Shown here piece by piece: positions 19,264 through 63,333 of a stretch of DNA of 64,000 nt. The DNA comes from Aureivirga sp. CE67 (lineage in GTDB: Bacteria; Bacteroidota; Bacteroidia; Flavobacteriales; Flavobacteriaceae): NCBI RefSeq assembly GCF_015767245.1, contig NZ_JADOTV010000002.1, positions 310,001-374,000 on the forward strand, given 5' to 3'. The notes beneath the pieces are model-generated. The model saw only the letters and a list, made by a program, of their open reading frames with translations, was not told the DNA's origin and made no database searches. A program made the translations under genes and the position numbers. The stretch's first letter is position 1; each line of letters starts with the position of its first letter.

Positions 19264-19466
19264 TTTCTTCATCAGACTTCTGTTTTATAAAAATGTTACA
19301 GAAATGATTGATTATTTTAAGTAAAAAGTTTTTTTAGGAATTCATAGCAATTTTTACCCTAAGCAAAATTTAACCAATTAAGCATTCTCTTTTCATTATA
19401 ATTTGACTTTAAAAACCCAGCAAAGTCTTGCGCATTTTTTCCCCTACGGCTTGAAATATTTTGTCT

Positions 19467-19541
19467 AAAAAACAATCTATTTTGCCCTTCTATTTTGCCC
19501 CAAATTTTACTTTTTTTCAAAAAATAAATAGATTGTTTTTT
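19467..19541. promoter_or_regulatory. Candidate operator: 12-bp direct repeats within a 16-bp inverted repeat
   Basis: TCTATTTTGCCC occurs twice, at 19476-19487 and 19489-19500, one base apart (13-bp period). The pair overlaps the left arm of a long-range inverted repeat of 16 bases (AAAAAACAATCTATTT and AAATAGATTGTTTTTT, loop about 42 bases). AraC-type regulators often bind direct repeats, and this site lies about 300 bases upstream of three AraC-type genes. The repeats are seen; the operator role is inferred. Confidence 0.5.
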
Positions 19542-19723
19542 ATCTGATTTTTCAAATATTTCGATGCAAACTTAGAGAGAGAATTTGGATTGAAAAATTG
19601 TTTTATATACAAAAACTTAAATTTTTTATTAAAATTTATAAATTTTACAAATATTAATGTATTGATTTTTAGATGTTTATTTATGTTTTGTGATTTTGCT
19701 TAAGTTCAGTTGTGTTTTTACAT

Positions 19724-19731
19724 TATATTTG
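19724..19731 (+). promoter_or_regulatory. Possible -7 element of the regulator array
   Basis: TATATTTG lies 64 bases upstream of the first TPR/AraC gene. The nearest TTTG is 25 bases upstream (19695-19698), longer than the usual spacing, so support is weak. Confidence 0.4.
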
Positions 19732-19794
19732 TAATTGAAATTGCATGATTGAGTAAAAAACATAAATTGAAAAAAGGAAATAGGTCGATTAATA

Positions 19795-21477
19795 ATGTTG
19801 TTTAGGAAAATTTTTTTATTCATATTCTACTTTTTTTGTATGAATTCTTTTGCCCAAATTAATGTGGGAGAATTCCTCGAAAAGGAGTATAAAAATATTA
19901 GGGAAAAGTATATACAAAAATCAAAGAATGATTCCGTAAAGAAAAAATATATTGAACTGTACATTGGTAAAGGAAAGAAAGAAAATAATATGTTTCGAAT
20001 TGCAGATGGTTATCAAATGCAGTACTTATTAAGTGAAAAAAAAGCTACAAAATATTTAGATAGCATACTTGAGATAAATGGAGATTCAGAAAATAATTTT
20101 TCTTTTTATGCTCATGTCCAAAAAGGACTTCATTATTATGAAAAAAGAAACTATATAAAAGCTTTAGAGCATTATATAAAATCTGCGAAAATTGTTGAAA
20201 AAATAGATGATAAGTCTGAATTTCTAGATTTAAAATTCAAAATAGCTGTTGCTAAAATGAATCATAATTTGAAAGAGGAAGCTTCTATGGATTTTCTGGA
20301 GTTTTATACTAATTGTAAGAAAGAGAAAGATTATGATTGGTTGGAGAAAAAATCATTATCGAATCTGGCAAAGGTATTTTTAAGTTTAAAAAAAACAGAT
20401 TCTGCTAAAATTTATCAAGATGTTTGGGTGCATAAATTTTACACAAAATCAACAAATGAAGAGAAGTTTAATTCTTTGATTCGTTGGGCTGAATATTTTT
20501 ATCAAAAAGAAAATTATCAATCTTCTTTAGATTCTTTGAATAAAGCATTAAAAATGTTTCATGAAGACACTAGTTTAAAATCTAATGATGAACAAGATCT
20601 TTACTATTTACTTTATTTAAACCATGCTAAAATTTACAATAATAAAGATGTGAAGTTTTTATTAAAATCAGATTCGATTATAAGTAGTGAAGGATGGAGT
20701 ATTAATCAAAATAGTTTGAGAATTTATCCGCTTTTAGTTGATTATTATAAAAATCATGACACTGATAGAAATATTAATGAACAGATTAAGTTCACAGGAG
20801 AATTGATTAAATATGATAGTGTTATAGATGTAAATAATAAAAGTATTGTCAATCAATTAAAGAAGTTTTATTTAGATAATCATAATAGCGAAAAAGAGAA
20901 ATTAGAACAAGAAGTTTCAAAAGCTAAAAGTCAAAAGAATATTTTAGAAATTATTACAGTTTTACTTTTAGTAAGTGGTTTTGGTTTGTTTTTTAGAAAA
21001 AAGTTTAAGTTTCAAAAGAAAAAGGTTGAAAGGAAGATTGAAAAAAAGGTAATAAAGGAAGTTAAAAAAGAAAGTAAAAAAGAAACGAAACGTACAATTC
21101 GAAATCTAGAAAATGGTTTGTCTGAAAACTATGTTTTAGAAACTTTGGAGAAGTTGAATCAATTTGAAAAATCAAAAAACTTTATCAAAAAAAAATACAC
21201 ACTTCAAATTTTAGCAAAAGAGCTTGAAACTAATAGTACATATTTATCGAAAATAATCAATCAAGAAAAAGGGGAGAGTTTTTCAAATTATATAAATAAT
21301 CTAAAGATTTCATATATCACGGAAAAGTTGGAAAAAGACTCGAAGTTTAGAAATTATACGATAAAAGCTCTTGCGGAAGAAGCAGGTTTCAATACTACAC
21401 AAAGTTTTACGAAAGCCTTTGAGAAAAAACACCAGAAATCGATTTTAGATTTCATTGAAAAATTAGAAAATAGTTAA
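19795..21477 (+). CDS. Membrane-tethered TPR / AraC-type HTH regulator, array copy 1
   Basis: This 560-residue protein has a signal peptide (about 1-21, MNSFAQ). A periplasmic TPR-like helical region follows (about 85-360, e.g. YEKRNYIKALEHYIKSAKIV). A short coiled segment leads to one transmembrane helix (about 383-400, LEIITVLLLVSGFGLFF) and a very Lys-rich cytoplasmic linker. An AraC-type DNA-binding domain follows (about 465-555, LQILAKELETNSTYLSKIIN and IKALAEEAGFNTTQSFTKAF). The layout suggests a one-component sensor that binds DNA while membrane-bound. The stop overlaps the next start (TAATG), so the array is translationally coupled. The signal sensed is unknown. Confidence 0.9.
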   Translation: MLFRKIFLFIFYFFCMNSFAQINVGEFLEKEYKNIREKYIQKSKNDSVKKKYIELYIGKGKKENNMFRIADGYQMQYLLSEKKATKYLDSILEINGDSENNFSFYAHVQKGLHYYEKRNYIKALEHYIKSAKIVEKIDDKSEFLDLKFKIAVAKMNHNLKEEASMDFLEFYTNCKKEKDYDWLEKKSLSNLAKVFLSLKKTDSAKIYQDVWVHKFYTKSTNEEKFNSLIRWAEYFYQKENYQSSLDSLNKALKMFHEDTSLKSNDEQDLYYLLYLNHAKIYNNKDVKFLLKSDSIISSEGWSINQNSLRIYPLLVDYYKNHDTDRNINEQIKFTGELIKYDSVIDVNNKSIVNQLKKFYLDNHNSEKEKLEQEVSKAKSQKNILEIITVLLLVSGFGLFFRKKFKFQKKKVERKIEKKVIKEVKKESKKETKRTIRNLENGLSENYVLETLEKLNQFEKSKNFIKKKYTLQILAKELETNSTYLSKIINQEKGESFSNYINNLKISYITEKLEKDSKFRNYTIKALAEEAGFNTTQSFTKAFEKKHQKSILDFIEKLENS

Positions 21478-23126
21478 TGAGAAATATTTTAATGATAATA
21501 TCTTTCTTTTTGGGAATTAATTGTTTTGCACAGATTGATACAGAAGAATTTATAAAGAAAGAATATAGAGATATTGATGATAATTATATTATAACTGCGC
21601 TTAATGATTCAATCCGAAGAAGATATATAGATTTATATATATATAAAGCTAAGAAAGAAAAAAGCGCAATTAAAATAGCAACAGGTTATAAAATTCATTA
21701 TGAATATTATAAAAATAGATTTAAAGCTGCTCCATATTTAGATAGTATTTTAGCTGTAAAAAACAATCCATATCGCTATTACAATTATTTTGCATATGGA
21801 GAAAAAGCAATGTTATATAGGTTTAAAAATGATACAAAAAAAGCTATAGAATATTATAAAAGGGCTGAAGAAATTGCTGAAAAAATAGGTCATGTTTTTG
21901 GAGTTTATTGGGTGAAATATGAACTTGCTTCTATAAAAATGAATTATCATCAAAAGGAAGAAGTTGTACAAGATTTGATTGAAGTTTATGATTTTTGTCA
22001 AAAGAATGAAGGAGAAAAATATGAATTATTAGAAAATAATACATTAATTATATTATCACGTGTATTACTATTATTAAAGAAAAATGATCTAGCTATAAAA
22101 TATTTAGAATATTGGCAAGAAAAACATTATAATAATTCTAAAGTATTAAAGAAATATTTTTCCCTTATCAATTGGGGGATTTATCTTCATCAGAAAGAAT
22201 ATTATAAAGCGTCAACAGATTCATTAGCTAAAGGATTAAAACTTCATAATGAATATTTTAAGCTTAAATCAGATGTGCATGAAATTTATTATCATCTGTA
22301 TTTAAATGATTTAAAGTATTATGGAATAGGAAATATAAAATATTTGTTAAAATCCGACTCTCTATATACAAATACACGTGATACTTTACTTAATCGAAAT
22401 CGTTTGAGAATTTACCCTCTTCTAATTGATTATTATAGAGATGAATATATTAATGATGTTGAAAAGCAAATATTTTATGCGAATAGATTAATAAAGTTAG
22501 ACAGCACATATGATGCTAGGAATAAAGACGTTTTAGGTACTTTCAAAAAATATGATATTGAAAAAATAAAAAAACAGAAAGAAGATTTAGAAAAAGAAAT
22601 TGAAAATGTTGCTAATCAAAAGAGATTACTAGTTTTTATAATATCAATATCTCTATTAATTCTTATTTATTTTTTGTGGAAAAAAAAGCAGAAAAATCGA
22701 CTAAAGAAAGTAGTCAATAATTCTGAAGATGCTGTTATAGAAAGTGAAAATAATAAAGAGAAGTCGCTATCAAATGATGTAATTGAAGATATTTTAAGTA
22801 AACTCGATAAGTTTGAAAAATCTGAAGGCTTTATCAAGAAAAAATATACACTTCAAATCTTAGCAAAAGAGCTTGAAACAAATAGTACATATTTATCGAA
22901 AATAATCAATCAAGAAAAAGGGGAGAGTTTTTCAAATTATATAAATAATCTAAAGATTTCATATATCACGGAAAAGTTGGAAAAAGACTCGAAGTTTAGA
23001 AATTATACGATAAAAGCTCTTGCGGAAGAAGCAGGTTTCAATACTACACAAAGTTTTACGAAAGCCTTTGAGAAGAAACATCAGAAATCGATTTTAGATT
23101 TCATTGAAAAATTAGAAAATAGTTAA
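21477..23126 (+). CDS. Membrane-tethered TPR / AraC-type HTH regulator, array copy 2
   Basis: This 549-residue protein has the same architecture: signal peptide (about 1-19, NCFAQ), TPR-like sensor, transmembrane helix at about 383-400 (LVFIISISLLILIYFLW) and HTH at about 455-545. The last roughly 85 residues are identical to copy 1, while the sensor half is clearly different. It is much closer to copy 3 in the sensor (both contain NDSIRRRYIDLYIYKAKKEK). It overlaps both neighbours by one base (TAATG). The ligand and targets are unknown. Confidence 0.9.
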   Translation: MRNILMIISFFLGINCFAQIDTEEFIKKEYRDIDDNYIITALNDSIRRRYIDLYIYKAKKEKSAIKIATGYKIHYEYYKNRFKAAPYLDSILAVKNNPYRYYNYFAYGEKAMLYRFKNDTKKAIEYYKRAEEIAEKIGHVFGVYWVKYELASIKMNYHQKEEVVQDLIEVYDFCQKNEGEKYELLENNTLIILSRVLLLLKKNDLAIKYLEYWQEKHYNNSKVLKKYFSLINWGIYLHQKEYYKASTDSLAKGLKLHNEYFKLKSDVHEIYYHLYLNDLKYYGIGNIKYLLKSDSLYTNTRDTLLNRNRLRIYPLLIDYYRDEYINDVEKQIFYANRLIKLDSTYDARNKDVLGTFKKYDIEKIKKQKEDLEKEIENVANQKRLLVFIISISLLILIYFLWKKKQKNRLKKVVNNSEDAVIESENNKEKSLSNDVIEDILSKLDKFEKSEGFIKKKYTLQILAKELETNSTYLSKIINQEKGESFSNYINNLKISYITEKLEKDSKFRNYTIKALAEEAGFNTTQSFTKAFEKKHQKSILDFIEKLENS

Positions 23127-24775
23127 TGAGAAATATTTTAATGATAATATCTTTCTTTTTAGGGGTTAATTGTTTTGCGCAGATTGATATTGAGAAAATT
23201 CTTAAAAAGGGATATAAAGATATTGGAATAAATTACATAATTGCTGAACTTAATGATTCAATCCGTAGAAGATATATAGATTTATATATATACAAAGCTA
23301 AAAAAGAGAAAAATCCATACAGAATCGTAAATGGTTATAAAATTGGATATGATTATTCTAAAGATATATTTGAAGGTGCACCATATTTGGATAGTATTTT
23401 AGCTGTAAAAGATAATCCAAAACCTTATTATTTTTATTATGCTTATGCTCAAAAGGCAATGTTATGTAGATTTAAAAACGACATAAATAAAGCGATAGAT
23501 TATTATATTAAATCTCAAAATATTGCTGAAAGTTTAGGAGATACTTTAGGAGTTTATAAGGTTAAGTATGAAATTGCTACAGTAAAAATGAATTATCATC
23601 AAAAGGAAGAAGTAGTAGAAGATTTAATAGAAATTTACAATTTTTGTCAAAAAAATAGAGGAAAATTATATGAAAATCTAGAAAAAAGAACCATTGGAAT
23701 ATTAACACGTGTTTTGTTACTGTTGAAAAAAAATGATCAAGCTTATGGATACATGAAATATTGGCAAGAAAGGCATTATGCAAAAGCTAATGTATATCAA
23801 AAGTATTTTTTTCTAACAAATTGGGGTATTTATTATCATCAAAAGGAATATTATAAAGCTTCCATTGATTCATTAGCTAAAGGATTAAAAATACACAATG
23901 AATATTTTGAACATAAAGCCGATATTCATGAAATATATTATTATTTATACTTAAGTAAGTTAAAGAAAAATGGTTTAGGAAACATAAAACTCCTGTTAAA
24001 GTCTGATTCTTTATACATGAATAAATATGATACTATATTGAACCAAAATCGTTTAAAAATATATCCTCTATTAATTGATTTTTATAAACAAAAAGAAGAT
24101 ATAACAAAACAAATATTATATACGGATAGATTAATTATGTTAGATAGTATTTATGATGCTGAAAATAATGATGTTGTAAATAATATTAAAAAATATGATA
24201 TTGAAAAAATAAAAAAACAGAAAGAAGATTTAGAAAAAGAAATTGAAAAAGTTGCTAATCAAAAGATATTACTAGTTTCTATAATATCAATATCTCTATT
24301 AATTTTTATTTATTTTTTGTGGAAAAAAAAGCAGAAAAATCAACTAAAAAAAGAGATAGATAATTCTGAAGGTGTTGTTGAGGAAAGTGAAAATAATAAA
24401 GAGAAGTCTTTATCAAATGATGTAATTGAAGATATTTTAAGTAAACTGGATAAGTTTGAAAAATCTGATAGCTTTATCAAGAAAAAATACACACTTCAAA
24501 TCTTAGCAAAAGAATTAGATACGAATAGTACGTATTTGTCCAAAGTAATCAATCAGAAAAAAGGAGAGAATTTTTCAAATTATATTAATAATCTAAAGAT
24601 TTCATATATCACGGAAATATTAGAAAAAGAATCAAAGTTTAGAAATTATACGATAAAAGCTCTTGCTGAAGAAGCTGGTTTTAATACTACACAAAGTTTT
24701 ACTAAAGCTTTTGAGAAAAAGAATAAAAAAACAATAATAAATTATATAAATCAATTGGTAAATGAAAAAGACTAG
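23126..24775 (+). CDS. Membrane-tethered TPR / AraC-type HTH regulator, array copy 3
   Basis: This 549-residue protein has a signal peptide almost identical to copy 2 (NCFAQ), a TPR-like periplasmic part, a transmembrane helix near 383-400 and an AraC-type HTH near 455-540. The HTH has a few substitutions relative to copies 1 and 2 (e.g. SKVINQKKGENFSNYINN), and the last 15 residues have diverged (NKKTIINYINQLVNEKD). The 3' end overlaps a 56-codon ORF by 14 bases. It is probably expressed in one message with copies 1 and 2. Confidence 0.9.
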   Translation: MRNILMIISFFLGVNCFAQIDIEKILKKGYKDIGINYIIAELNDSIRRRYIDLYIYKAKKEKNPYRIVNGYKIGYDYSKDIFEGAPYLDSILAVKDNPKPYYFYYAYAQKAMLCRFKNDINKAIDYYIKSQNIAESLGDTLGVYKVKYEIATVKMNYHQKEEVVEDLIEIYNFCQKNRGKLYENLEKRTIGILTRVLLLLKKNDQAYGYMKYWQERHYAKANVYQKYFFLTNWGIYYHQKEYYKASIDSLAKGLKIHNEYFEHKADIHEIYYYLYLSKLKKNGLGNIKLLLKSDSLYMNKYDTILNQNRLKIYPLLIDFYKQKEDITKQILYTDRLIMLDSIYDAENNDVVNNIKKYDIEKIKKQKEDLEKEIEKVANQKILLVSIISISLLIFIYFLWKKKQKNQLKKEIDNSEGVVEESENNKEKSLSNDVIEDILSKLDKFEKSDSFIKKKYTLQILAKELDTNSTYLSKVINQKKGENFSNYINNLKISYITEILEKESKFRNYTIKALAEEAGFNTTQSFTKAFEKKNKKTIINYINQLVNEKD

Positions 24776-24932
24776 AAAAATAGAATTAAAAAATATAGAA
24801 AAAGTCAAAGAGAAAGATATTTCCGATTTTGAACATGTTAGTTTAGAGTTTGGATTTGATGTAAATCATTCAATACTGTGTATTTCTGGAAAAGATGAAA
24901 TAGATATTTCAACTAGATTAACTAATATTTAA
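24762..24932 (+). CDS. Small ORF of 56 residues, unrecognised
   Basis: ATG at 24762 lies inside the last codons of the preceding regulator gene (14-base overlap, different frame) and the ORF ends 10 bases before the peptidase ATG. The product begins MKKTRKIELKNIEKVKEKDI, very Lys/Glu-rich. It ends with a less charged part containing one Cys and several Ser/Thr (VNHSILCISGKDEIDISTRL). It fills the gap between the two genes exactly, in the pattern of a coupled operon member. A basic N-terminus before a variable tail is reminiscent of Bacteroidota natural-product precursor peptides. However, there is no GG cleavage motif and no modification enzyme nearby. Real expression is likely but not proven. 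Confidence 0.55.
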   Translation: MKKTRKIELKNIEKVKEKDISDFEHVSLEFGFDVNHSILCISGKDEIDISTRLTNI

Positions 24933-24942
24933 AGGGGATTAT

Positions 24943-27117
24943 ATGAGAACGAATTATTTACTACTGCTATTGTTAGTAATAACAATCAGTTGCTCTGAAA
25001 AAAAAGAGACAGTAATTGCGACTGCAGAATTAAGCCCAATTGAATCAATTCAAGAGTATCATGGAATTGAAATCAAAGACTCTTATGAGTTTTTAGAAAA
25101 TTCTAAAGATTCTTTAGCGAATCTATGGTATAAAGAAAATTCAGAATTAACAAAGAATGTTCTTGATAGAATTCCAAATAAAGAAAAATTATTTGATGAT
25201 AAAGAATCTCAACAAATTATCTCTAATGGATATATCTATCATTATGCATCTTTTACTAGTAAGTTAGATGTTTTTTATATCAAACTAAAAGAGGATGAAA
25301 AAATTCCGAAGTTATTTCTAAAAAAGAAAGGTTCTGAAGAAGAAAAATTAATATTTGATCCAAATTTATATAAAGAGAACTACAAAATTAATTATTTAAA
25401 AGTTTCTCCTTCTGGAGATTATGTGATTTTGAGTCTTGCTCCTTTAGGAGAAGTGATTTCAGAACTGGTAGTGTTAGATGTAAATAAAAAAGAAATTATT
25501 CCAAATATAAAATTAGAAAATACTTGGTCAACAGGTATTTATGAGTGTTCTTGGCTTCAAGATGAAACAGGATTTACATATATATACATTCCTGATATAA
25601 ATAAAGACTCCAAAAATTATATCCTTGATACAGAGTCTAGAATATGTTTTTTAGATGGTAGTTTAAAAACAATTTTTTCTAAAAAGAATAATCCCGATTT
25701 TAAAATTGAAAGCAAAAAATTTCCGACGGTTATAACAACTGGAAAGAAACATATTTTTGGAGAAGTAAACAGTGTAAGTAAATTTTCGGATACCTATTTT
25801 ACAACTATTGAAAATGCAAAGAAAGGTGGAAAAAAATGGCGTCCTTTGTTTAAAAGAACAGATTCTATAAAGAAAGTATTTACATATAATTCTAATTTTT
25901 ATTTTTTAACCTCTAAAGGAAATAATATAGATAGAATTTGTATGACTTCAATTGAAAATCCAGATTTTAAAAATCCTGAAATTTTGATTGAAGCAGATAC
26001 AGAAAATTTAATCTTAAATTCAAAATTAACAAAAGATGGAATTTATTTTGTGAAATCTAGATTTGGATTGACTTCAGAGCTTTTTGTATATGAATTTTCT
26101 ACAAGAAAAATTAGAAAAATTGAACTACCGCATCAAGCAAGTAAGATATATTTGAAAAAATTAAATAGTGATTCTTCTGATATTTGGGTTTCAATTTCAA
26201 GTTGGGTTTCAGATGCTGAAAGATATTTTTATGATTATAAAACAAACACATTTAAAAGAGATGAGATTTTTCCTACTAACGGTTTTATAGAAATAGAGAA
26301 TGCAGAAGTTAAAGAAATCGAAATAGTATCTCATGATGGTGAAAAAGTACCTTTATCTCTAATTTATAGAAAGGGAACAAAGCTAGATTCAAATAATAGA
26401 ACCATGCTATATGGTTACGGTTCATATGGTTCTTCAATCACTCCTAGAGTTAGTACTATAATTAGAGAATGGATTGATAATGGAGGAGTGTATGCAATTG
26501 CTCATGTAAGAGGTGGAGGAGAAAAAGGAGCAGATTGGCATATGGCAGGGCAAAAAAGTACAAAACCTAATACTTGGAAAGACTTTATTGCATGTGCAGA
26601 ATATTTAATAGATAATAAATATACATCTCCTGATAAGTTGGTAATAAAAGGAAGAAGTGCTGGAGGTATTTTAGTTGGAAGAGCCATAACTGAAAGACCT
26701 GATCTGTTTAAAGCAGCTGTTGTTGGAGTAGGTCTTTTAAATACTGTAAGAAGTGAATTTGGTCATAATGGTCAAAATAATATAGCTGAATTTGGAACAG
26801 TAAAAGATTCTTTAGAATTCCAGTATTTATTAGAGATGGATTCTTATCATCATATTAAACCTAAAACAGATTATCCAGCATTATTAGTTCAAGTAGGAAT
26901 GAATGATGCAAGAGTTCCGCCATGGCATTCAGGAAAATTTGTAGCTCAAATGAGAAGATTGAATCCAAATCCTAAAAATCCAGTTTTATTTTGGGTAGAA
27001 TTTGATGAAGGGCATATGGGAGCTTCAACTTCCCAAAAAGGATGGGATGATGATACAAATGAAATGGCTTTTTTACTTTGGCAAACTGGTCATCCAGATT
27101 ATCAATTAGAAAAATAA
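24943..27117 (+). CDS. Prolyl oligopeptidase family serine peptidase (S9), lipoprotein
   Basis: This 724-residue enzyme has a lipobox near residues 12-17 (VITISC). It shows the S9A layout: N-terminal part, beta-propeller and C-terminal alpha/beta hydrolase domain. The nucleophile is about S572 in KGRSAGG. The acid residue is in VQVGMNDARVPPWHSGKF, and the catalytic His is in EFDEGHMGAS. It cleaves short proline-containing peptides at the cell envelope. It follows the small ORF by 10 bases and is probably in one operon with the three regulators. The leader AAAGGGGATTAT gives an unusually good ribosome-binding site for this lineage. Confidence 0.94.
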   Translation: MRTNYLLLLLLVITISCSEKKETVIATAELSPIESIQEYHGIEIKDSYEFLENSKDSLANLWYKENSELTKNVLDRIPNKEKLFDDKESQQIISNGYIYHYASFTSKLDVFYIKLKEDEKIPKLFLKKKGSEEEKLIFDPNLYKENYKINYLKVSPSGDYVILSLAPLGEVISELVVLDVNKKEIIPNIKLENTWSTGIYECSWLQDETGFTYIYIPDINKDSKNYILDTESRICFLDGSLKTIFSKKNNPDFKIESKKFPTVITTGKKHIFGEVNSVSKFSDTYFTTIENAKKGGKKWRPLFKRTDSIKKVFTYNSNFYFLTSKGNNIDRICMTSIENPDFKNPEILIEADTENLILNSKLTKDGIYFVKSRFGLTSELFVYEFSTRKIRKIELPHQASKIYLKKLNSDSSDIWVSISSWVSDAERYFYDYKTNTFKRDEIFPTNGFIEIENAEVKEIEIVSHDGEKVPLSLIYRKGTKLDSNNRTMLYGYGSYGSSITPRVSTIIREWIDNGGVYAIAHVRGGGEKGADWHMAGQKSTKPNTWKDFIACAEYLIDNKYTSPDKLVIKGRSAGGILVGRAITERPDLFKAAVVGVGLLNTVRSEFGHNGQNNIAEFGTVKDSLEFQYLLEMDSYHHIKPKTDYPALLVQVGMNDARVPPWHSGKFVAQMRRLNPNPKNPVLFWVEFDEGHMGASTSQKGWDDDTNEMAFLLWQTGHPDYQLEK

Positions 27118-57329: not shown

Positions 57330-57938
57330 AAAAAAGAGAACTTTTGACTTAGTCCTCTTTTTCCATAGAATTATAATCTTAAAAGATAAAAATTAAATAG
57401 CCTAAATGTTGATAAAACAAGTTGTACTTTTTTTAATTAGTACAACTTGTTTTTTTTTGAGAGATGTTTTTTAAATTTGAAAAAAATCTCTCGTATAATA
57501 GATGTTTAATAGAGTTTTATTCTTGATAACAATTCAAATGTAAGTCAACTTCTATTCAAAAAAAAAACAACTAGGTTGAATATCATAAAAAATAGGGTGA
57601 TTTTTATAAAAATCAATTGTTACTGAAGGTTGTAAGATGTTGAAAAATAAGGGTTTTATTGTTTTTTTATATTTTTACGTTTTAAAAAGTTATTTAAAAG
57701 AGGAATAATAAATAAAATTGGGTTTATCTTTAAAAAGTTGAAAATAATTATATTTTACCTATAAAAATCTTTCAATTTTTTTGATTAATAATTTGCTTTT
57801 TGAAATAAAAATACTTTATTGGAACACGAAGATTTTTGACAAAAATCTTACAAAGCAAATGGAACTACACTAAAATATTTAATGAAGAATAAATTTATTT
57901 ACATATTAAAGAAGTCTGAGAAAATCAATGTGAAAACA
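57330..57938. other. Intergenic region upstream of the fourth TPR/AraC gene
   Basis: These roughly 610 AT-rich bases hold two hairpins: a weak one just after the flavoprotein stop (AAAAAGAG/CTCTTTTT, about 57332-57363) and a strong one at 57416-57458. No gene or clear consensus promoter was found in the rest. Confidence 0.6.
57416..57458 (+). terminator. Strong terminator after the mevalonate operon
   Basis: The stem AACAAGTTGTACT / AGTACAACTTGTT is perfect, with a 10-base loop and a T run of about eight. Confidence 0.85.
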
Positions 57939-59756
57939 ATGAAGCAACTTTCGTATTTGTTTTTACTTTTTTGGAGCTTTTCTTTTTATGGTCAAAAAAT
58001 AGATGAGAATATTTTAGTCAATCAAAGTTTTTCGAGAATTCAAAAACATATAGATGCACAACAGATATATGAAAATGGAGTTCCAGTTGGAAGAAATGAT
58101 TCTTTATATACATATTATTTAAATGTGTATTTGAAAAAAGCGAAGATTACGAAGAATCATGAGGAAATGCTTTTGACTTATTTAAAGCTGAGTACTATTT
58201 CGAAAGAAGAAGCTATTTTAAAAAATTATAATGATAGTATCAATGCTGTTTTTAGTCAAGTGCAGCCGTCAAAAAGAATCATGTATGCCTATTCTTTCCG
58301 AGCACAAGATTTATTGAATAGTCAAAATCATTATGAATTAGCAATTGAAGATTATAGTAAAACAGTTTATCTGGCAAAACAACTTGGGGATGAGGATCAG
58401 ATTTATCTTACAAAGCTGTATATAGCGAATTTACACCAAGAAGTAGGTGAGTATAAAAAAGCAATGGATATTATTGAGGAAGTTTTGGCTGCACATAAAG
58501 AAAAAAACTTCTCTTGGATGGAAATTTATTATCCAGAATTAGCTGCTACTTTTATCCATAATAATAAATTAGATTCTGCAAAGATTTTTATTGAAAAAGG
58601 AATTAAAGAAGGAGGAGTTCAGAAAATTCAATATATGGATTTGGTGATGTACTCTGGGGTTTATCACTTTTTGAATGGAAATTATGACCAAAGTATTGAT
58701 AGTTTACAAAAAGTAAAGTCGAATTACCAACATAAAGCTTATCTACAACAAGATAAATTACTTTCTATTGATTTATATCCTGATTATTATATAGGGAAAT
58801 CAATTTATAAAAAGACTGGAAATGTTGAAGCTGCAATTCCATATTTTAAGAATGTAGATAGTATCATGCAATCGTATAAGGATGCAGATTATACTGTGAT
58901 GGATACTTATGATCATTTGGTTGGATATTATAAATCTAAAGGAGATTCGAAAAATCAATTGAAATATTTAGAGCATCAAATAGAATTAGATAGCTATTTG
59001 GATAAAAAATATCGTACAGTTGTAAATAATATCAATAGAAAATATAATATTGAAGAAGTAAAAAAAGAAAAAGATGCTCTTATTGATGATTTAAAAGAGG
59101 ATAATTCGAGTTTCTTTAATTTAATAGTTGGTCTTCTTATTCTTGCAAGTTCTCTTGGTATTATGATTTATATTCAAGTGAAAAGAAGTAAAGAAAGTCA
59201 ATCACTTCTTGACTTGAAAGATGAAAAGCTTAATGAGTATAAAAACATAAATGAAATACAGAAAGTTGCTTTAGAAAAGGAAAAAGAAGTTGCAAAGAAG
59301 CTGAAAATCCAGAAAATGATTGAAGCTAAAAAGAGAGAAAAAGAAGAAGCGAAGAAAGAAGATAAGAAGGATTTTGAAATTTCAGAGAAATTGGTTGAAG
59401 AGATTTTGGAAAAATTAGAGAAGTTTGAAGCTTCTAAAAAGTTTATCAATAAAAAATATACATTGAGTTCTTTAGCAAAAGAATTAAATACGAATAGCTC
59501 CTATTTATCGAAGATTATAAATGCTGAAAAGAAATTAAATTTCTCTACGTATATTAATCGATTAAGAATCGAATATGCAATCCAAAAACTGGAAGAAGAC
59601 AAGGTATTCCGTTCGTTTACTATTAAAGCAATTGCGGAAGAAGTCGGATTTAAAACAGCACAATCTTTTTCAGCTACTTTTTTCAAATATAAAGGTGTTT
59701 ATCCTTCTGCTTTTATAAAAACTATTGAGCAAGAAAAGACAGAAATAGATTCTTAG
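57939..59756 (+). CDS. Membrane-tethered TPR / AraC-type HTH regulator (fourth copy, SusC-adjacent)
   Basis: The protein has about 605 residues from ATG 57939, which gives a clean signal peptide (MKQLSYLFLLFWSFSFYGQ). A longer frame from 57882 adds 19 polar residues. Periplasmic TPR-like helices fill about 70-370. One transmembrane helix lies at about 391-414 (FFNLIVGLLILASSLGIMIY), followed by a long charged coiled coil of Lys and Glu. An AraC-type HTH lies near 505-600 (LSSLAKELNTNSSYLSKIIN, IKAIAEEVGFKTAQSFSATF). It is homologous to the triplet at 19795-24775 but clearly diverged. Being next to the SusC/SusD genes, it may control them; this is inferred. Confidence 0.9.
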   Translation: MKQLSYLFLLFWSFSFYGQKIDENILVNQSFSRIQKHIDAQQIYENGVPVGRNDSLYTYYLNVYLKKAKITKNHEEMLLTYLKLSTISKEEAILKNYNDSINAVFSQVQPSKRIMYAYSFRAQDLLNSQNHYELAIEDYSKTVYLAKQLGDEDQIYLTKLYIANLHQEVGEYKKAMDIIEEVLAAHKEKNFSWMEIYYPELAATFIHNNKLDSAKIFIEKGIKEGGVQKIQYMDLVMYSGVYHFLNGNYDQSIDSLQKVKSNYQHKAYLQQDKLLSIDLYPDYYIGKSIYKKTGNVEAAIPYFKNVDSIMQSYKDADYTVMDTYDHLVGYYKSKGDSKNQLKYLEHQIELDSYLDKKYRTVVNNINRKYNIEEVKKEKDALIDDLKEDNSSFFNLIVGLLILASSLGIMIYIQVKRSKESQSLLDLKDEKLNEYKNINEIQKVALEKEKEVAKKLKIQKMIEAKKREKEEAKKEDKKDFEISEKLVEEILEKLEKFEASKKFINKKYTLSSLAKELNTNSSYLSKIINAEKKLNFSTYINRLRIEYAIQKLEEDKVFRSFTIKAIAEEVGFKTAQSFSATFFKYKGVYPSAFIKTIEQEKTEIDS

Positions 59757-60318: not shown

Positions 60319-63300
60319 ATGAAAAAAAGAACTAATCTTTTATTAATGCTGTTCTTTGCATTAATAACTCAAATTGGTTTTGCTCAACAGATCACCGTAA
60401 CAGGTACTGTATCTGATGATGCTGGTCCTCTTCCAGGGGTAAGTATCGTTATTGAGGGAACAGCTACTGGAACAGACACTGACTTTGATGGTCTTTACAC
60501 TATTCAAGCAGAAAAAGGTCAAACTTTAGTGTTTAGTTTCGTAGGATTACAAACAGTTAAGAAACTTGTTGGAGATGCTACAACAATTGATGTTGTAATG
60601 ACAAACGACAACGTTTTAGAAGAAGTTGTAGTATTAGGTTATTCAGATAAGAGTAGAGAGACTCTTTCGTCTGCTGTAACAAGTGTAACTACAAAAGAAT
60701 TAGAGGAAGTTGCTCAAACTAACAACGTAGCGAATGCCTTACAAGGTAAAGCTTCTGGGGTAACAGTAACTGCTCAAAACGGTAAGCCAGGTCAAACTGC
60801 TTTCGTACGTGTACGTGGTACAGGATCTATTAATGGAGGTCAAGAACCATTATATATTGTTGATGGAGTTGCAATCAGTGAGTCTGATTTGAACTTAATT
60901 AACAGTAGTGATATTGAGTCTATGTCTGTATTAAAAGATGCTGCAACTGCTGCTATCTACGGAGCTAGAGGATCTAACGGGGTTGTTGTAATTACTACTA
61001 AAGGAGGTAAAAAAGACAGAGATGCTAAGTTTACTTTAAACTCTCAAATTGGATATTCTGAAAGAATTGATGATGGATGGGATTTAATGAATGCTGAGCA
61101 AAAATTAGATTACGAAAAAGAATTAGGTATTGGTGTTGGAGCTTCAGCTTCTGATGAAGAAAGAGCTGCATTAATCAAGAATGACCACGATTGGAGAGAA
61201 ACTTTATTAAAGAAAGGTTTCACAAGATCAAACGCTCTTTCTGTAACAGGAGGATCTGAAAAAACTACTTACTTCGTTTCTTTAAAGAATGAAGAAGATA
61301 CTGGAATCATCGATGGATTAGATGGATATAAAAGAACAACTGGACGTGTTAACTTTACATTTGACGCTAGAGATTGGTTAACTATTGGAGCTAAAACTGG
61401 AGCTTCTTACACTATTTCTCAAGAGCCAAGAGATAGAAACAATGCTCAAAATCCATTTAGAGCGATGTATACTTACAACCCATACGAAACAAAGTATGAG
61501 TTAGATGCTGATGGTAACGTAAAGTTAGATGACAACGGAAATCCTGTTTATAACTATACACACGCTGGATTCTCAATTTCTGAGGCAATCGTTAATAATC
61601 CAGAGACTGATAAATTCTTAAGAATTTTCAATACAATGAATGCAGATGTAAGATTCAATGAGAATGTTTCTTACAGTACTAAAGTAGGTTTAAACTACAG
61701 AAGATATAAAGGAGAGTACTTCGTTAAGCCAGGGTCTATCTTAGATGGTTATGTTGGTGATGCTAACGCTCCAGGATCTAAAAGAGATAGTGGATCTGAT
61801 AGATTTACTTTCAACTACCAAAATATCTTAAAGTATAAGAATACTTTTAATGAAAAGCATAACTTTGGAGCTTTAGTTTTATCTGAATATATTACTACAG
61901 TACATGAAGGATATTCTTTAAGAAGTAAAGGATTCCCTACAGATAAGTTCGATGAGCAAGTTAATGCTTCTGACCCAACAGGTGCTTCTACTACGAAATT
62001 TGAGGAGACTACTTTCTCAATTGCTGCTTCTGTAGATTATGATTATGATCAAAAATATATCGCAACTGCTTCTTTCAGACGTGATGGATCATCTAAGTTT
62101 GGTGCTAACAACCGTTACGGTAACTTCTGGTCAGCTTCTGCTGCATGGAACATTGCTAACGAAGATTTCTTAAAAGATGTTGAATTCTTAAGTGCATTAA
62201 AATTAAGAGCTTCTTACGGTACCTTAGGAAATGATAGAATTGGAAACTACGGATTCTTAGGATTATATTCTTTCGGAGCTTATAACGGATCTTCAGCTTC
62301 TTTCCCAAGTAGAACTGAAAACCCAGATTTAAAATGGGAGTCTAAAGCTATTACTGATATAGGATTAGAGTATGGATTCTTAGGAGGAAGAGTACGAGGA
62401 GTATTTGATTATTATAAGTCAGTAACATCTGATTTATTATCAAACAAAATTTTAGCTTTCGAAACTGGAGCACCAGGATTATCAGTAGTTCAAAACAATG
62501 GAGAAATCCAAACTGAAGGATTTGAAATCGAATTAAGTGGAGATATCATCAGAAATTCTGATTTAAAATGGACTGTAGGTGGTAACATCGCATTCTCTAA
62601 AACTAAAGTAAATAGCTTAGTTGGAGGAGATGACCAAATCATCGGTGGTGGAAACATCATTTTAAGAGAAGGTGAAGAAGTAAATACTCATTATTTAGTA
62701 AGATATGCAGGAGTAAATTCTGAAACTGGATTAGCTCAATACTATGATAAAGAAGGAAACATTACAGATCAATATTCTGCTGATGATGCAGTAGCATTAA
62801 GTGGAAAATCTGTAAACCCTGATTTTGATGGATCTTTCTTTACAAGAGCTGAGTACAAAGGATTCGAATTATCTGCTAACTTCTACTTCAAGTTCGGAAA
62901 CTACATTTACAACAATGTAAAAGCTGACTTAGAGAGTGATGGATCAAATGCATTTGATAACCAAAGTGTTTCTGCATTCAACTACTGGAAAAACCCAGGA
63001 GATACAGGAGTATTACCAGCACCACAACAATTAAGTGGAATTCGTTCTGATGTTGCTTCTGATCGTTTCTTACAAGATGGTTCTTATATCCGTTTAAGAA
63101 GTTTAAAATTAGGATATACTGTACCTAGAGAATTAGTTGAGAAAATCAAACTTTCTGATGTAAAGTTATACGTTCAAGGTCAAAATTTATGGACTTGGAC
63201 AAAAGAGTATGAAGGAGATCCAGAAATTGGAGTTGGATCAGGTGAAGCTACAGGAGAAGTAGCAGGATCTAGATCTTTATACTCATACCCAACTACTAAA

Positions 63301-63333
63301 ACTTATTTAGTAGGATTAGATATTTCTTTCTAA
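60319..63333 (+). CDS. SusC/RagA family TonB-linked outer-membrane protein
   Basis: This 1004-residue outer-membrane importer has a signal peptide (about 1-23, QIGFAQ). A carboxypeptidase-regulatory-like domain (about 25-105, VTGTVSDDAGPLPGVSIVIE) is followed by a plug domain with the SusC signature SVLKDAATAAIYGARGSNGV. A 22-strand-type TonB barrel ends in an aromatic residue (VGLDISF). It pairs with the SusD lipoprotein gene, 20 bases downstream, to bind and import oligosaccharides or peptides. The substrate is not predictable without the rest of the locus, which lies outside the window. Confidence 0.96.
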   Translation: MKKRTNLLLMLFFALITQIGFAQQITVTGTVSDDAGPLPGVSIVIEGTATGTDTDFDGLYTIQAEKGQTLVFSFVGLQTVKKLVGDATTIDVVMTNDNVLEEVVVLGYSDKSRETLSSAVTSVTTKELEEVAQTNNVANALQGKASGVTVTAQNGKPGQTAFVRVRGTGSINGGQEPLYIVDGVAISESDLNLINSSDIESMSVLKDAATAAIYGARGSNGVVVITTKGGKKDRDAKFTLNSQIGYSERIDDGWDLMNAEQKLDYEKELGIGVGASASDEERAALIKNDHDWRETLLKKGFTRSNALSVTGGSEKTTYFVSLKNEEDTGIIDGLDGYKRTTGRVNFTFDARDWLTIGAKTGASYTISQEPRDRNNAQNPFRAMYTYNPYETKYELDADGNVKLDDNGNPVYNYTHAGFSISEAIVNNPETDKFLRIFNTMNADVRFNENVSYSTKVGLNYRRYKGEYFVKPGSILDGYVGDANAPGSKRDSGSDRFTFNYQNILKYKNTFNEKHNFGALVLSEYITTVHEGYSLRSKGFPTDKFDEQVNASDPTGASTTKFEETTFSIAASVDYDYDQKYIATASFRRDGSSKFGANNRYGNFWSASAAWNIANEDFLKDVEFLSALKLRASYGTLGNDRIGNYGFLGLYSFGAYNGSSASFPSRTENPDLKWESKAITDIGLEYGFLGGRVRGVFDYYKSVTSDLLSNKILAFETGAPGLSVVQNNGEIQTEGFEIELSGDIIRNSDLKWTVGGNIAFSKTKVNSLVGGDDQIIGGGNIILREGEEVNTHYLVRYAGVNSETGLAQYYDKEGNITDQYSADDAVALSGKSVNPDFDGSFFTRAEYKGFELSANFYFKFGNYIYNNVKADLESDGSNAFDNQSVSAFNYWKNPGDTGVLPAPQQLSGIRSDVASDRFLQDGSYIRLRSLKLGYTVPRELVEKIKLSDVKLYVQGQNLWTWTKEYEGDPEIGVGSGEATGEVAGSRSLYSYPTTKTYLVGLDISF

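Follow-up and report, generated by a model that had tools for sequence, protein, structure and literature searches.

Single-pass membrane transcription factors with a periplasmic sensor are familiar from the ToxR/TcpP type. Quorum sensing by receptor and peptide, as in RRNPP systems, has been described in Gram-positives: its receptors are intracellular TPR proteins of 250-500 aa, encoded adjacent to a propeptide that is usually Sec-secreted (PMC10075063). In Streptococcus salivarius, ComR, ScuR and SarF are paralogous TPR sensors with a conserved DNA-binding domain, altered stretches of the sensor and overlapping regulons (PMC6703854). Class I lanthipeptide clusters of Bacteroidetes encode LxLxKx5L...GG leaders and C39 proteases, and a split LanB is known from them; their regulators are mentioned there in general terms (PMC7268733). 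TPR proteins have been noted in RiPP loci before, with an unclear role (PMC8939145; PMC10352776). In the open-access literature we found no description of TPR-AraC regulators, nothing that links such membrane regulators with GG peptides and prolyl oligopeptidases (POPs), and nothing on homogenisation of their HTH domains.

Architecture of the triplet and its island

The window, the 64,000-nucleotide stretch of Aureivirga sp. CE67 DNA analysed here, carries three consecutive regulator genes on the forward strand: R1 (19795-21477, 560 aa), R2 (21477-23126, 549 aa) and R3 (23126-24775, 549 aa). At the R1/R2 and R2/R3 junctions the genes overlap by one base, the A of TAATG. An earlier note on this DNA had described a TAATG-joined triplet with signal peptide, TPR sensor, one transmembrane (TM) helix and AraC-type HTH, and the ORFs, Pfam searches and hydropathy analysis bore this out. 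The N-terminal hydrophobic segment ends in FAQ in all three proteins, and hydropathy places a single TM helix with a basic C-flank at about residue 382-402 of each. Pfam recognizes the TPR region weakly, through sub-threshold matches. The C-terminal HTH_18 domain scores 38.0 bits in R1, 36.9 in R2 and 32.4 in R3; with the curated cut-off at 33.6 bits, R1 and R2 fall within AraC/XylS and R3 lies just below. In the AlphaFold model of R2 (mean pLDDT 87), TPR helices reach to about residue 322, a single helix with the TM segment inside it spans residues 328-414, and a linker modelled at low confidence (414-429) connects this helix to the HTH. The sensor is predicted to be periplasmic, and we infer the corresponding topology in vivo. 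The same note had seen no kinase or sigma/anti-sigma partner; indeed, Pfam found no kinase, receiver, sigma or anti-sigma domain in R1-R3, and none is apparent among the neighbouring ORFs. By this architecture, R1-R3 would be one-component single-pass membrane regulators.

The triplet, a small ORF and a POP gene form an accessory island of about 7.8 kb (19301-27095), delimited by blastn and local alignment against a sister species (G001). There the island is absent and the M16 peptidase gene adjoins rplU, the break points being some 215 bp apart. The backbone DNA of the window is 87-90% identical to that of the sister species, and G+C is 0.252 in the island against about 0.30 in its flanks. 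The POP (24943-27117, forward strand) is an S9A prolyl oligopeptidase (Pfam S9, 4.5e-47; S9_N, 9.6e-24) with a lipoprotein-type signal, ITISC, and a GRSAGG motif. In another genus, a TPR-AraC pair lies near rplU as in the window (L072:5018-14606), which marks a possible insertion hot spot.

Upstream of R1, a perfect 17-bp inverted repeat (19461-19542) encloses two tandem copies of the 12-mer TCTATTTTGCCC. Its RNA fold has a z-score of -4.1, and it is a possible operator or terminator. We rejected the hairpin as a genome-wide repeat, a full-length second copy being absent from the genome. An Rfam search of the region found nothing.

Mosaic homogenisation in tandem regulator genes

Synonymous divergence (NG86) was compared between the sensor and HTH parts of the three genes. 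The R1/R2 comparison gives a dS of 0.067 for the HTH and 1.53 for the TPR part, which excludes uniform divergence along the genes. The near-identity reported earlier for bases 21225-21476 and 22874-23125 amounts to 3 differences in 252 bases, and the C-termini of R1 and R2 are identical as claimed, over 98 residues rather than about 85. The homogenised tract (tract 1, forward strand) occupies 21232-21511 in the R1 copy, where it comprises the HTH, the stop codon and the R2 start, and 22881-23160 in the R2 copy, where it comprises the end of R2 and the start of R3; the 280-bp copies differ by 2 mismatches. Since the tract passes the R1 stop codon and extends about 35 nt into R2, to 21511, it is in register with the tandem unit. 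The longest silent-site run between R1 and R2 counts 13 sites (21240-21417), compared with a maximum of 12 in 10,000 shuffles (p about 1e-4).

A second tract links R2 and R3. Here dS is 0.83 in the HTH, 0.88 in the TPR part and 0.04 in the coiled coil and TM segment (codons 371-410), and the longest silent run counts 16 sites (22547-22802), compared with a shuffle maximum of 15 (10,000 shuffles, p about 1e-4). Tract 2 covers the coiled coil, TM helix and linker (22547-22802 in R2, 24190-24445 in R3, forward strand). Between R1 and R3, dS is 0.83 in the HTH and 2.1 in the TPR part, and no silent-site run exceeds the maximum of 10,000 shuffles. The homogenisation pattern in R1-R3 is not due to chance. 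Tract 1 shows the same distance from R3 as the rest of R2 does, and R1 was therefore probably the recipient of this conversion. A single unequal crossover creating R2 was rejected, as it predicts an equal age of both halves, which is not seen; the R2/R3 sensor dS of 0.88, far above the tract values of 0.04-0.07, requires later conversion.

One could suppose that no recombination took place and that purifying selection simply acts more strongly on the HTH than on the sensors, in line with the conservation of HTH domains across all members. This is very improbable: silent sites are homogenised too (dS 0.07 in the HTH against about 1.5 in the sensors, 13 sites in a row), and the R1/R3 HTH dS is 0.83 despite equal constraint. 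The silent sites thus indicate recent homogenisation beyond protein-level constraint alone, and they rule out purifying selection as the sole cause of HTH identity unless the tract has an overlapping function at the DNA or RNA level. Gene conversion of the HTH between R1 and R2, one of two explanations originally offered, is supported by both dS and silent runs.

Mosaic homogenisation recurs in other arrays. Within the same family, 72 of 301 genomes gave TPR-AraC matches at E <= 1e-20, with seven consecutive genes in G078, five plus one nearby in G103 and two in G197. Among array pairs with sensor identities of 25-35%, mean HTH identity was 0.87 against 0.53-0.54 for other pairs, and synonymous-codon identity was 0.69 against 0.46-0.50 (rank tests on non-independent pairs, p about 1e-10 and 1e-9). 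We also built quick trees of sensors and of HTH domains, the latter short and mostly weakly resolved. In these, R2 groups with R3 by sensor and R1 with R2 by HTH; the G103 array occupies three places in the sensor tree, while its five genes form one supported clade in the HTH tree; and G078 gene 2 falls outside its own array by sensor and inside it by HTH. As sensor and HTH trees conflict alike in the two longer arrays, domain-wise concerted evolution recurs across genera. L054:4537-16715 holds seven same-strand TPR-AraC genes in a row with no GG peptides nearby, and L057:6564-8205 encodes two relatives of about 200 aa that match the HTH end and are too short for a TPR sensor. A search of named genomes for related loci returned only one short Neisseria match, which was discarded.

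Where the recognition helices are expected (NSTYLSK[IV]INQ and NTTQSFTKAFEK), R1-R3 carry identical residues save for one I/V exchange, and because these predicted residues match in all three copies, a common DNA target is plausible. Conversion and selection for one target had initially been set against each other, a false dichotomy because the two can act jointly. Homogenisation might also be neutral, without selection for a common target: tandem repeats would recombine frequently, and the outcome would be retained best where the copies already resemble each other most. Such a process would account for tract 2, whose coiled coil, TM helix and linker hold no DNA-binding part, and for the reach of tract 1 beyond the stop codon, into the signal peptide of the next gene. 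We nevertheless think it unlikely, given that the HTH is repeatedly the conserved part in arrays whose sensors are only 25-35% identical. That two other arrays are homogenised in the same way speaks for a functional reason or a recurring mechanism. In our preferred reading, R1-R3 would share an operator because gene conversion along the tandem array keeps their HTH ends alike.

Candidate ligands and the peptide neighbourhood of relatives

Among solved structures, the top six matches of R2 all belong to phage phi3T Rap, determined together with its pheromone. The matches also include NprR and a Rap in complex with its peptide, and eukaryotic peptide-binding TPRs follow closely; rmsd values are high. 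By sequence profile, RapF is matched over residues 73-309 (E 2.8e-9), although some generic TPR proteins score better. Together, the matches of the modelled fold and of the profile favour peptide binding by R2.

Seven other genera have, on one strand, a TPR-AraC gene, then an ORF of 40-58 aa with a GG leader and finally one or two POPs. Within the sampled loci, 34 of 85 TPR-AraC genes and 0 of 305 other genes are followed within 200 bp by a same-strand GG-leader ORF, a contrast of nominal significance since the peptide model was partly built from the same loci and the regulators were partly picked for their clusters. Three of the seven peptides have the core GPI[DR]RDK in common, all seven cores contain proline, and the relatives' peptides match NF038153 below threshold. 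Some cassettes also encode C39-peptidase exporters (G146, G111 and G227; in G146 Pfam also confirms HlyD) or a split LanB (G124). LanB, LanC and C39 neighbours occur near relatives' TPR-AraC genes, and some relatives, for example L073 and L103, have a LanA precursor near LanB/LanC. Oligopeptidases of the M3 family (thimet-type) lie near other pairs of TPR-AraC gene and GG peptide in L067, L072 and L077. These small secreted-type peptides, with peptide-cutting enzymes nearby, suggest an unrecognised peptide-sensing system. In G181 there are 120 GG-leader matches at E <= 0.1, many of them away from TPR-AraC genes; in the examined DNA around the G078 and G197 arrays, there is no GG peptide.

The window shares part of this arrangement. 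Its triplet is followed by a same-strand POP that falls with the regulator-linked POPs (95/94 support; one member is without a detected regulator) and separately from a clade of 11 unlinked POPs, and no leader-model match lies between regulator and POP. The position of the relatives' peptide gene, as seen for small ORFs in L079 and L103-L108, is taken by a candidate 56-aa ORF (24762-24932, forward strand) that overlaps the end of R3. This ORF has neither GG nor proline and reaches 10.8 bits with TIGR04149 (cut-off 25); we rejected it as a conserved peptide family for want of convincing homologues. None of the other small ORFs of the island is peptide-like. The GG-leader profile, which failed to detect credible leaders of G111 and G146 as well, had no match in this genome or in that of the sister species. 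As for a class I lanthipeptide cluster, the window contains no LanA precursor, and no LanB or LanC is apparent among its ORFs. In the trees, R1-R3 cluster with regulators of their own genus, one of them beside SusC, and apart from the peptide cassettes. With a non-canonical ORF, no GG-leader match and a descent apart from the cassettes, the source of the ligand may differ here: it may come from elsewhere in the genome or from other cells, or there may be no pheromone at all. On another contig of the same genome (L132:6268-12604), a C39 exporter and an HlyD-like gene accompany two near-identical double-glycine, Cys-rich bacteriocin-like peptides of a type unlike the GG leaders.

A fourth TPR-AraC gene of the window, W4 (57882-59756), lies directly upstream of a gene for a SusC-like TonB receptor (60319-63333), an order retained in the sister species (L059). 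This conserved placement, together with the absence of a canonical peptide from this genome in the profile search and the frequent control of adjacent genes by one-component regulators, would suit proteins that sense envelope stress, a nutrient or the cargo of a TonB/SusC importer. The GG-leader peptides may then be targets rather than signals, and the POPs likewise. We consider such a role for the regulators rather unlikely, since many genera have the peptide immediately downstream, two unrelated families of oligopeptidases occur nearby and the fold is Rap-like.

The earlier note had overlooked the POP, the island boundaries, tract 2 and the peptides and oligopeptidases encoded around the family's genes, which bear most on function. 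In the peptide-sensing model that we prefer, the periplasmic TPR superhelix of R1-R3 would bind a ligand, most likely a short peptide, and one TM helix with a long coiled coil would relay the signal to the cytoplasmic AraC HTH. The three proteins would read different or overlapping peptides, all acting on the same operator, and the downstream POP lipoprotein might act outside the inner membrane, either maturing the peptide or degrading it. Taken as a whole, this RRNPP-like scheme of periplasmic peptide sensing, inverted and membrane-bound, with several sensors acting on one DNA target, comes close to an even call without quite reaching it. Only tentatively, and with some doubt, would we extend it to the bacterial family, in which TPR-AraC proteins would be widespread periplasmic receptors of peptide pheromones, commonly accompanied by a GG-leader peptide and often by an oligopeptidase, and in which arrays would vary the sensors while conversion keeps one DNA-binding end, directing many signals to one operator.

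Comparison with known systems

A membrane-bound Gram-negative counterpart of RRNPP systems, if real and linked to lanthipeptide-like genes, would account for the activation of such clusters and would offer modular sensors that share an output; the arrays also provide a natural experiment in receptor diversification without loss of target. R1-R3 resemble Rap, NprR, PlcR and Rgg in their TPR sensor, in the peptide gene adjacent to their relatives, in the DNA-binding domain that several RRNPP members carry and in the best fold match of R2, which is Rap. They differ in their length of 549-560 aa, in the signal peptide and TM helix with a TPR region predicted to be periplasmic, in the C-terminal AraC-type HTH behind the TM helix and in the GG leaders and C39 exporters of the relatives' peptides. 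As RRNPP receptors are intracellular and 250-500 aa long, R1-R3 fall outside this group, though the logic may be alike. The description of Bacteroidetes class I lanthipeptides fits the peptides beside TPR-AraC genes in other genera, whereas the window itself is without such a precursor. With AraC/XylS proteins, R1-R3 share the C-terminal two-HTH domain and differ in its fusion, through TM helix and coiled coil, to a periplasmic TPR sensor. Regulators of the ToxR/TcpP type, in contrast, have an N-terminal HTH, another sensor fold and a co-component partner. By analogy, the nearest functional counterpart of R1-R3 is the ComR/ScuR/SarF trio, whose members are cytoplasmic Rgg-type proteins rather than membrane-bound ones.
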